51,414 nt of DNA, taken from a virus. The stretch is taken from positions 1 to 51,414 of IMG/VR virus record IMGVR_UViG_3300025728_000004; one strand, 5' to 3'. Below are positions 16,590 to 23,854 of this stretch, one piece after another. Made by a program: the position numbers and the translations under genes. The first letter of the stretch is position 1, and each line of letters begins with the position of its first letter. Below the pieces are notes generated by a model, which searched no databases, was not told where the DNA came from, and saw only the letters and a program-made list of their open reading frames with translations.

Positions 16590-16608
16590 TGTGAGTCAAA
16601 TACTCACA
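16590..16608. promoter_or_regulatory. Partition-type inverted repeat, upstream copy
   Basis: The core is GTGAGT, five bases, ACTCAC (16591-16607), extended to TGTGAGT/ACTCACA. It lies immediately before parA. A related pair, ATGAG and CTCAT, follows at 16609-16625. The same core with the same five-base spacing recurs just after the partner gene. In type Ib partition systems the centromere and operator lie upstream of parA, so this is a candidate binding site for the ribbon-helix-helix protein. Confidence 0.65.
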
Positions 16609-16623
16609 ATGAGAACCGTACTC

Positions 16624-17232
16624 ATGAAGAAGATCGGGCTATGGACGCAGAAGGGCGGGGCTGGCAAGTCAACCAGCGCGGTCACCCTGGCCGGGGCGCT
16701 GGCTCAGAAACACCGCGTTGCCCTGATCGATACCGATCCGCAAGGCAGCGTCGGCCGGTGGGTTGAGATTGCGCAGCTGCCGGCCACGCTCGAGATATTC
16801 ACCGCCGAGCGCCTGTCAGACCTGAAGGGGCTGTCGGGGTTTGACTATGCGGTGATCGACACAAAGGGGGAATTGTCTGCGGACGCTCTGCCCTACCTGG
16901 ACATGGCACTGCTGCCGTGCGCGCCGAGCATTTTCGATATCTGGGCAGCCGCTGACTCCATCGAGCTGATGAAGGCGCACCTGGCGCACCGGCCCGAGTT
17001 CATAGCTGCGCTGTACGTCAATCGCCTGGACCAGAACACCCTGCTTGGCCGGGACATTTCCGAGGCGCTGAACGGCTACGGCCTGCCCGTGCTCAGCGTG
17101 CCCCTGTGCGACCGGATCGGATACCCGACAGCCATCGCCCGAGGGAGAACCCCAACGAGAAGCGGCGACAGCGCGATACGCCTGGAGTCGCTGCGCTTCG
17201 CTGAAGCCGTCAAGAAACTATTGGAGGCCTGA
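16624..17232 (+). CDS. parA: ParA-type partition ATPase
   Basis: This 202-residue protein is a short ParA without an N-terminal DNA-binding domain, as in type Ib systems. The deviant Walker A KGGAGKST is at residues 10-17, Walker A' DTDPQGS at about 38-44, and Walker B in FDYAVIDTKG at about 72-81. Such ATPases bind the nucleoid and move plasmid copies apart. ATG 16624 starts at the first strand (MKKIGLWTQ); ATG 16609 and GTG 16591 are possible longer starts but run through the inverted repeat. The next gene, two bases on, encodes its DNA-binding partner. Its plus-strand orientation is opposite to the surrounding genes. Confidence 0.92.
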   Translation: MKKIGLWTQKGGAGKSTSAVTLAGALAQKHRVALIDTDPQGSVGRWVEIAQLPATLEIFTAERLSDLKGLSGFDYAVIDTKGELSADALPYLDMALLPCAPSIFDIWAAADSIELMKAHLAHRPEFIAALYVNRLDQNTLLGRDISEALNGYGLPVLSVPLCDRIGYPTAIARGRTPTRSGDSAIRLESLRFAEAVKKLLEA

Positions 17233-21988: not shown

Positions 21989-22372
21989 TTAACAACTACT
22001 GTATGGAATAGCAGTATCAGGTGACGTGGAAGAGACCGCTGAAGAAGTGGTGCTAGGTGACGTGGAAGGGACCGTTATTTTGAGAAGTCCGACGCGACTC
22101 TCTAACCGTCTTCCTGTGTTCCGGTAGGCCGGGCGGCCTTTCCGATGGGATGCAGCCTTGAAATTAACGTGAATCACGTTTTTGCCTGCGCTGGACGCCG
22201 GATCAGTCCGTTCCTGATCCGGGTAGCTATCGATGTCATCAAAGGCTTGTACTGCCTTGGCGGTCATGAGTTCTGCAAGCTGCATTCCGGTCATGTTTTT
22301 TGAAGCCGCCATTGCTTCCCACCGGGCCAGGTTCTCAATTCCGATTACGCTCTCGTAATATTCCTTAGTCAC
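21989..22372 (-). CDS. Hypothetical early protein, operators embedded in its 3' end
   Basis: The product has 127 residues from a GTG start (AAGGAG eight bases upstream). The N-terminal half is helical (YESVIGIENLARWEAMAASK then MQLAELMTAKAVQAFDDI) and may bind DNA or a partner. The last 30 residues are a low-complexity Ser/Thr/Pro tail, because this stretch of DNA holds two operator copies at 22020-22073. The tail probably reflects the sites rather than protein function. Not recognised. Confidence 0.55.
   Translation of the reverse strand: MTKEYYESVIGIENLARWEAMAASKNMTGMQLAELMTAKAVQAFDDIDSYPDQERTDPASSAGKNVIHVNFKAASHRKGRPAYRNTGRRLESRVGLLKITVPSTSPSTTSSAVSSTSPDTAIPYSSC
22020..22037. promoter_or_regulatory. 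Class II operator-like site, copy 1
   Basis: GGTGACGTGGAAGAGACC. One half (GAAGAGACC) matches the class I operators; the other half (GGTGACGTG) is different. The same 18-mer form recurs at 22056 and, inverted, at 23837. It lies inside the 3' end of a coding region. Confidence 0.6.
22056..22073. promoter_or_regulatory. Class II operator-like site, copy 2
   Basis: GGTGACGTGGAAGGGACC differs from copy 1 at one base. The two copies are 36 bp apart start to start, about 3.4 helical turns. The spacing could allow two dimers to contact each other. Confidence 0.6.
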
Positions 22373-22716: not shown

Positions 22717-22920
22717 TCAGTCTGGTGCTGCTTTCTTCTTTGCTTTCGGGAAGTCGCTGAGCTCGATCCCTTTTGCCTTTCCGTCCGGTAGCACAGTGAT
22801 GAGAATGTCTCGCCCGGCCTCTACCGCCTTCGTGATTCCCTGGTGACTAACACCAAGCATTTTTCCCACCTTGGCCGGGCCAAGATCTGCAACCAACTGC
22901 TTTAGCGGAACACCTTGCAT
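22717..22920 (-). CDS. cro: Cro-like repressor
   Basis: This 67-residue protein closely follows lambda Cro in size and layout. An N-terminal strand/helix (MQGVPLKQLVADLG) leads to the helix-turn-helix AKVGKMLGVSHQGITKAVEAG (about 17-37), then the dimer strand RDILITVLPDGKAKGIEL and a basic tail (FPKAKKKAAPD). GAGGGAG precedes ATG 22920. It is the first gene behind the leftward promoter with an operator in its spacer, as expected for Cro. Its DNA targets are probably among the 18-bp operators. Confidence 0.85.
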   Translation of the reverse strand: MQGVPLKQLVADLGPAKVGKMLGVSHQGITKAVEAGRDILITVLPDGKAKGIELSDFPKAKKKAAPD

Positions 22921-22990
22921 AAACGACTCCCTCGCCGGTTGATACCTAATGGTAACTAACAGTTGCGGAGCCTTCAACGGTGTTACGCAA

Positions 22991-23018: not shown

Positions 23019-23088
23019 CTTAAAAATTATTTCATCGAAAGGACTTTACAGGCTCGCAACCTTGAGTTACCTTTTAACCCATCGAAGC

Positions 23089-23127
23089 GGTCCCTTCCGA
23101 GAGACCAGACGACTCGCTCTTTATACA
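23089..23127 (+). promoter_or_regulatory. Rightward early promoter candidate with operator
   Basis: The operator GGTCCCTTCCGAGAGACC is at 23089-23106 and TATACA at 23122-23127 can serve as a -10 box. The -35 region would fall within the operator and is poor (GAGAGA), so an activator or a different start is possible. It is divergent from the cro promoter and faces the plus-strand early genes. Confidence 0.5.
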
Positions 23128-23173
23128 ATCTGCGCAACAACCAATAGACCGCGCCGCCTCTGTCGGCGACCGG

Positions 23174-23230
23174 CGATCAGACAGGCCCGAAAGCCTGCCC
23201 ACGAAAGGGAAAACCCTTTGCGGCTGATCG
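23174..23230 (+). ncRNA. Candidate three-way-junction structured RNA
   Basis: CGATCAG (23174-23180) pairs with CTGATCG (23224-23230) to close a junction. It holds two perfect hairpins: CAGGC-ccgaaa-GCCTG (23182-23197) and AAAGGG-aaaa-CCCTTT (23204-23219). All 18 pairs are Watson-Crick. It would be transcribed from the rightward early promoter. Class and function are unknown; a regulatory or processed RNA is a reasonable guess. Confidence 0.5.
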
Positions 23231-23379
23231 ATGGCGAAAGCCTTAACCGTGCGAATGACCCGGCAAGCGATGCGCCCCGCCACACTCAGGCGGCAATGGA
23301 GTGAGCAGTTTGAATATTCAATAGGTGGCCACTGCCTGCCCAGTGAGCGAGCAATAGGAGATTCCATCATGGACTGACA

Positions 23380-23433
23380 ATGGTGAGTCATCTGCGTGGC
23401 GTAGCAAGCCTGAAGGCTGCGCCCAACACCTGA
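23380..23433 (+). CDS. Possible 17-codon leader peptide
   Basis: The ORF encodes MVSHLRGVASLKAAPNT. Just before it, a strong AGGAG site drives an ATG-GAC-TGA mini-reading frame (23369-23377). Ribosomes finishing there could restart at 23380. It could be a leader peptide that couples translation to the fold of the downstream RNA, or it may be chance. Confidence 0.2.
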   Translation: MVSHLRGVASLKAAPNT

Positions 23434-23627
23434 CAGGCAGCGGAAATCGGCCATCGATCTCACCGCGGATCGGCAGGAACACCGGTAGGCCAACCGAACG
23501 AGAGCGTACAACTTGACGCAACAATCCAGGCCGGTCGCCAGTAGCGCGGCCTGGACCCTTTCGCCAGTGCCGATTCGATGAGTCGGCAGTGGGAAAACTA
23601 CCAACCAAAAACAGCAGGGGTGCAAAC

Positions 23628-23822
23628 ATGAAAGACAAAACGGGTGTAGCCCTCTTGGGCGACGAATTTGAAATTGACGCGCTGAGCCTTCGCGGCCTGT
23701 TCGTAACCAAGGCGATGGGCGACTCGGCTGTATATCCTGGCTCCAGGACGTACCGACAGTCTCAGCAACGCATGCCAGGCAATAGCTCGGCTCGCACCTT
23801 CCACCATCACAGCCGCCTTTAA
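23628..23822 (+). CDS. Possible small protein
   Basis: This 64-codon frame follows a CAGGGG ribosome site that matches the usual style of this phage. The first 40 residues look protein-like (MKDKTGVALLGDEFEIDALS); the end (RTFHHHSRL) does not. It may be a real short gene or a decayed one. Confidence 0.35.
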   Translation: MKDKTGVALLGDEFEIDALSLRGLFVTKAMGDSAVYPGSRTYRQSQQRMPGNSSARTFHHHSRL

Positions 23823-23836
23823 AGCAGAAAATTAGC

Positions 23837-23854
23837 GGTCTCTTCCACGTCACC
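23837..23854. promoter_or_regulatory. Class II operator-like site, copy 3
   Basis: GGTCTCTTCCACGTCACC is the exact reverse complement of the site at 22020-22037. It lies 14 bases before the first plus-strand gene, so a bound protein could act as a repressor, a roadblock, or a translational block on the 5' leader. Confidence 0.6.

Follow-up and report, generated by a model that had tools for sequence, protein, structure and literature searches.

In phage lambda, nut sites (boxA plus boxB, which act with the N protein) are present in both the left and right early leaders, and lambda bar is a regulatory minigene that consists of a Shine-Dalgarno sequence, an AUG, one or few codons and a stop codon. 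The immunity RNAs of P4 and P1 belong to structured leaders between an early promoter and its genes. The HK022 put site is an RNA of ~70 nt with two stem-loops and is present as putL and putR (PMC9378689). At rRNA, boxA is associated with SuhB and the Nus factors in a complex that has been argued mainly to promote rRNA maturation (PMC4807359). The minigenes of LEE1 (EHEC) and axe-txe are cis-acting parts of leaders (PMC8708949).

Here, we analysed virus record IMGVR_UViG_3300025728_000004 (51,414 nt; hereafter the window, to whose whole length all positions refer), which is a lambdoid Pseudomonas phage. One of its early leaders contains a boxA and three RNA elements (A, B and C), with a minigene embedded in B:

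23115-23127, plus strand: boxA (CGCTCTTTATACA) of the rRNA-leader/nut type
23147-23297, plus strand: element A, a structured RNA of ~150 nt (model R1, 150.5 bits; covariation)
23316-23562, plus strand: element B, a structured RNA of ~245 nt with a minigene (homologues, covariation)
23356-23360, plus strand: Shine-Dalgarno sequence AGGAG of the minigene
23369-23377, plus strand: minigene ATG GAC TGA (Met-Asp-stop), an ORF of two codons
23559-23596, plus strand: element C, a hairpin UUUCGCC...GGGAAA just upstream of the first gene

The described systems each resemble this leader in part. The host rrn boxA leader shares the core GCTCTTTA, its position soon after the promoter and a long structured untranslated RNA behind it, but in the phages this RNA belongs to swappable phage families and is not rRNA, and in loci with A an upstream hairpin of the boxB kind does not appear to be general. 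The lambda nut site has its place in the pL leader and its boxA in common with the window, whereas in A several helices take the place of the short boxB hairpin, and we found neither an N-like gene family near A nor a partner site on the pR side. HK022 put is also a structured RNA just after pL with no phage protein partner identified, but A is led by boxA, is about twice as long, contains a closing helix plus several further helices and is present as one site per locus. The minigene has the same parts as those of LEE1 and axe-txe (i.e. Shine-Dalgarno sequence, AUG, one or few codons and stop), yet it lies inside a covarying RNA and is kept across scores of phages while its codons change. As in P4 and P1, a structured leader is located between an early promoter and genes; however, A coexists with CI repressors, and neither a terminator-like site nor a conserved target pairing was seen.

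In the open-access literature searched, no early antitermination system is described for these Pseudomonas phages, and the elements themselves are undescribed, although an absence from open-access papers is weak evidence. No Rfam family matches the window at its gathering score (a match being defined by gathering score or E ≤ 1): the only hit is narK, with E 1.4 and on the wrong strand, and neither A of locus L008 nor B of locus L137 gives a match.

Organization of the early region

The region around the leader contains the following features:

22717-22977, minus strand: Cro-family protein (Pfam PF09048, E 2.7e-10), first gene of the leftward operon
22951-22967, no strand assigned: operator-like site GGTAACTAACAGTTGCG, an inverted copy of 23055-23071 (repeat I2), beside the leftward promoter
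23045-23073, plus strand: probable leader promoter TTTACA-17-TACCTT, read from the sequence, with a weak -10
23055-23071, no strand assigned: operator-like site CGCAACCTTGAGTTACC (repeat I2), overlapping the probable leader promoter
23628-23822, plus strand: first plausible ORF behind the leader, of 64 aa and without a PHROG match

The leftward run consists of genes for Cro (whose start is likely the ATG at 22936), a NinX-like protein, an HNH endonuclease and O- and P-like replication proteins, and the rightward run of genes for a phrog_1376 protein, Sak4, SSB, an exonuclease-type protein and an integrase. The gene layout of both runs therefore identifies 23128-23627 as the leader of a pL-type (N-side) early operon, located between the probable promoter and the recombination/integrase genes. 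Cro homologues in related loci are likewise oriented opposite to element A. The initial annotation had described a hairpin-rich leader behind the rightward promoter: a promoter does precede the leader, but on the pL/N side rather than at pR, because the leftward run is the one with the Cro, O, P and Nin-type genes, and the structured leader stands with its beginning moved upstream to the boxA at 23115.

The promoters between the operator-like sites at 22951-22967 and 23055-23071 probably form a divergent pair, and the leader transcript probably starts at ~23080. In homologues that score at least 9/12, the median distance from the -10 to boxA is ~50 nt.

A 19-bp sequence (GGTGACGTGGAAGRGACCG) is present in three perfect copies at 22020-22038 (+), 22056-22074 (+) and 23836-23854 (-) of the window, which bracket the cro-leader segment in inverted orientation. 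It occurs in only eight of 347 loci, all near relatives of the window in that region, and is a candidate operator or recombination site of the window lineage. Elsewhere in the window, a match to a ParA-like partition protein (phrog_164) is located at 16591-17232 (+), opposite to the direction of the adjacent genes.

Conservation of boxA and element A

Our results agree with the earlier statement that no credible gene fills this stretch: relatives are mostly unannotated there, the first plausible ORF begins at 23628, and homologue lengths fall into all three classes modulo 3 (14/12/21 for A and 17/20/10 for B), on which ground a protein-coding reading was rejected, though antisense frames are often stop-free. 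The hairpins claimed for the stretch are also present, and their description was an understatement. By folding energy, the 500 nt have a z score of -2.26, with 1 of 100 shuffles as stable (z -2.71 for the antisense strand). Among the single hairpins only C stands out by energy (z -4.71, 0 of 200 shuffles as stable), and B alone is not unusually stable (z -0.79). The excess of hairpins by energy alone is thus modest, and the decisive evidence is comparative.

A covariance model built from 47 sequences gives the window's A 150.5 bits and the next-best place in the window 12.4. The consensus A consists of (i) a closing helix CGCAUU/AAUGCG with a GCC/GGC extension, which is imperfect in the window itself; (ii) a 7-bp helix around two hairpins; (iii) a further hairpin of the GGUG-AAA-CGCC type; and (iv) a final CCGCC/GGCGG hairpin. 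In the MAFFT alignment of A, 95.5% of the cells are paired and two-sided changes number 79 (17.6 ± 3.2 in shuffles), in a model-fitted alignment of 60 sequences they number 159 (33.2 ± 4.4), and in B beyond the minigene (47 sequences) 96.4% of the cells are paired with 118 two-sided changes (31.1 ± 5.1); the sequences being related, these counts are not numbers of independent events. Sliding the partners lowers the pairing from ~96% to ~20-40% in A and B (20-38% in A when slid by 1-3 columns). Covariation in homologues had been set beforehand as the test on which the claim of an RNA structure could fail. It is strong in both A and B, so this refutation fails and the leader is a conserved structured RNA.

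Loci were found by the exact strings GCCTCT..GGCGACCGGCGA and ATAGGTGGCCACTGCC, whose conservation is therefore by construction. Because of this selection, the CCGG-CGA-CCGG hairpin of A is no evidence; the minigene and most covarying pairs fall outside the search strings. Element A was found in roughly 150 IMG/VR and phage loci, one copy per locus, with no second copy in the window. Under stricter filters, it is present in 15 of 99 genomes of one Pseudomonas genus, the centre genome included, and in none of the 194 other genomes of the order (195 searched, with only the centre genome positive). A loose-pattern scan of genome contigs gave a strong A match in 11 of the first 100 loci, those with titles being all Pseudomonas, and a search of plasmids for A gave no match.

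All 144 loci examined contain a boxA ahead of A (CTCTTT(A/C) in 137 and GTTCTTTAACA-like near-variants in 7), mostly located 39-47 nt upstream of the GCCTCT motif, or ~105 nt where there is an insert. The Pseudomonas rRNA leader boxA is CCGCTCTTTAACAA in the one genome sampled and has the core GCTCTTTA in common with the phage boxA; the window's boxA deviates from the consensus after this core. On the pR side boxA is not in excess, with 6 minus-strand sites in 1377 kb versus ~10 expected. A boxB-like hairpin before boxA does not appear to be a general feature of A loci (mean MFE -7.6 versus -6.0 in shuffles; 22% individually at p ≤ 0.1). Unrelated RNA families were also seen behind the same boxA in related phages (L154, L169, L202 and others).

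Element B and its minigene

Some match to B is present in 121 loci. Its 5' part contains a strong Shine-Dalgarno sequence followed 7-10 nt later by an ATG, and in 76 of the 78 distinct B loci that have both, a minigene of 1-4 codons before the stop results (1 codon in 14, 2 in 45, 3 in 15 and 4 in 2). The same holds for 12/12 divergent B copies. The encoded residues (e.g. MK, MD, M, MKR and MWK) and the stop codon are variable, and the shortness is constant. In six further loci the B domain lies behind another 5' part, and the minigene is still located just before the B domain. Exceptions are L006, L159 and L166, which have no ATG, and L168 and L210, with 84 and 41 codons; B of L152 contains an insertion. 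Over the same loci, 1345 contexts combine a Shine-Dalgarno sequence with an ATG, and in 131 of these the ORF is no longer than 4 codons. B accounts for 74 of the 131, and outside B such short ORFs number 57 of about 1,270. B thus contains what defines a regulatory minigene, i.e. a Shine-Dalgarno sequence, AUG, 0-3 codons and stop, conserved as such.

Loci such as L131, L188, L172 and L330 contain the terminal B hairpin (CCCGGTCTGTCGCCAGTAGCGAGACCGGG type) alone, without the rest of B. A second type of minigene, CACGGAGGATTGGCAGCC ATG TAA, is present in L008, L049, L077, L082, L097, L098 and others. About 100 nt downstream of it lies a terminator-like hairpin (AAAGCCCGGT..ATCGGGCTTTTTT), which apparently overlaps the beginning of the following ORF. 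This combination looks like an attenuation cassette.

Element C and modular organization of the leader

Element C is a hairpin whose stem varies between the constant flanks UUUC(A/G)C ... GGGAAA; it is located after A or B and lies mostly 17-34 nt ahead of a gene start. Of 134 A loci, 51 contain its motif no more than 700 nt from A. A and B are present jointly or separately; where both are present, B follows A on the same strand at a distance of ~160 nt to about 2 kb, and B can sit among operon ORFs, far from A. Parts of the leader were found by blastn in 28 phage records, mostly unannotated (26 Pseudomonas phages and 2 unassigned phages). Three loci (L154, L169 and L202) contain cro/operator DNA near-identical to that of the window, including a site similar to 23055-23071, yet carry a different RNA behind boxA; A is therefore not fixed even in the window lineage. 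Upstream of B, boxA sites form 14 clusters, which include several clear boxA-RNA types and some that are probably due to chance. The first genes behind A are diverse (the largest cluster comprises 12 loci), so A is not a gene-specific riboswitch.

Judged by these comparisons, the leader is a series of predicted, swappable folded RNA modules common to many Pseudomonas phages. The initial annotation missed the boxA and the minigene, and also that A, B and C are modules independent of one another. Two perfect 10-nt complementarities between A and B (repeats I15 and I16) were rejected as conserved A-B pairing: their B side tracks the B subtype, and its sequences are also present in phages without A.

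Potential functions of the leader

The boxA, the embedded minigene and the absence of a terminator-like site from the window's leader argue for cis control of early transcription and translation. Most likely, A would be a cis-acting, boxA-dependent antitermination or RNA-folding signal, with no N-like partner found, and the leader probably keeps early transcription going. We favour, with moderate confidence, a non-coding leader that combines antitermination by boxA and A with the B minigene as a ribosome-docking element. In this scheme, boxA in the nascent RNA would bind host NusB-S10 (and SuhB/NusA/NusG), as in rRNA leaders; A, folded behind boxA, would stabilise or complete the Nus complex and so do the work of a nut or put site, no phage N protein being found nearby; and, across both the long untranslated leader and the early operon, the polymerase would then be resistant to Rho and to pausing. 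A ribosome would load on the B minigene, terminate at once and stay or recycle there, where it could shield or remodel the leader in cis and set the expression of the next gene. Antitermination is the main claim, and the exact effect of the minigene, for which docking is a putative role, is the least certain step. A bolder version is possible but rather doubtful: A as a protein-free antiterminator that uses the host rRNA boxA machinery and is one of several interchangeable boxA-RNA types, and B as a ribosome-operated switch in which a start-stop minigene, not a peptide, gates the early genes.

Apart from a repressor-like cluster (68 loci), no protein family is common to A loci in a search that could miss short or distant proteins, and the largest neighbour family reaches at most 44 loci. 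Two points are weaknesses of antitermination, namely the lack of a sense-strand terminator excess and of a pR-side boxA. The operon strand shows no enrichment of terminator-like sites (80 versus 160 antisense in 376 kb), and internal terminators were dropped as support; the window's operon contains one such site (28271).

A and B are compact and covarying, and the presence of either depends neither on the other nor on the genes that follow. These properties would also suit trans-acting sRNAs cut from the leader and directed against the host or superinfecting phages, with boxA only guarding their transcription from Rho, a role that has been proposed for rRNA; svsR, an sRNA of a lambdoid prophage, does limit phage infection (PMC12803456). 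However, svsR derives from the 3' end of cI, a different place, neither A nor B is ended by a terminator-like site in the window, and the Shine-Dalgarno sequence in B, with a stop following at once, speaks for a ribosome role in cis, so that an sRNA source seems improbable. We also give little credence to a leader that boxA only guards and in which A, B and C set mRNA stability or translation in cis, with no operon-wide antitermination. Such a role would fit the reported cis action of leader minigenes (LEE1, LEE4 and axe-txe; PMC8708949), the usual position of C 17-34 nt ahead of gene starts and the location of B amid operon ORFs distant from A, but not the strict tie of A to boxA rather than to any particular downstream gene.

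The initial annotation had noted that there is no CI gene and proposed an RNA-based switch, by analogy with P4 and P1, in which short RNAs processed from such leaders control immunity. A switch of this type would end early transcription by a short leader RNA and replace CI. Indeed, no cI lies between cro and the leader in the window and five relatives (L129, L147, L156, L186 and L195), in which cro is about 235-247 nt from A, no repressor was found among the part of the window's ORFs that was scanned, and the structured leader lies directly behind the promoter. Among the 88 A loci with at least 3.5 kb upstream, however, 82 contain a CI-type repressor upstream of A, so the RNA normally coexists with CI; moreover, the leader has no terminator-like site, and the B-side sequences of I15 and I16 follow the B subtype and occur in phages lacking A. 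The leader is therefore unlikely to be an immunity switch, and an RNA of the P4/P1 type that replaces CI strikes us as very improbable. Although cro directly adjoins the leader in its lineage, without an intervening cI, the window encodes an integrase.

With antitermination by boxA and A as the preferred reading, the leader is a defined, testable RNA in which boxA, the closing helix and the minigene start or stop can each be disrupted. The minigene is an unusually clear example of an ORF that is kept by selection while its product can scarcely be of importance, so that a regulatory function of start-stop translation can be tested directly. Should A need no factors other than the host Nus proteins, it would stand beside HK022 put as a phage antiterminator based on RNA, and such an antiterminator would be common in Pseudomonas prophages.
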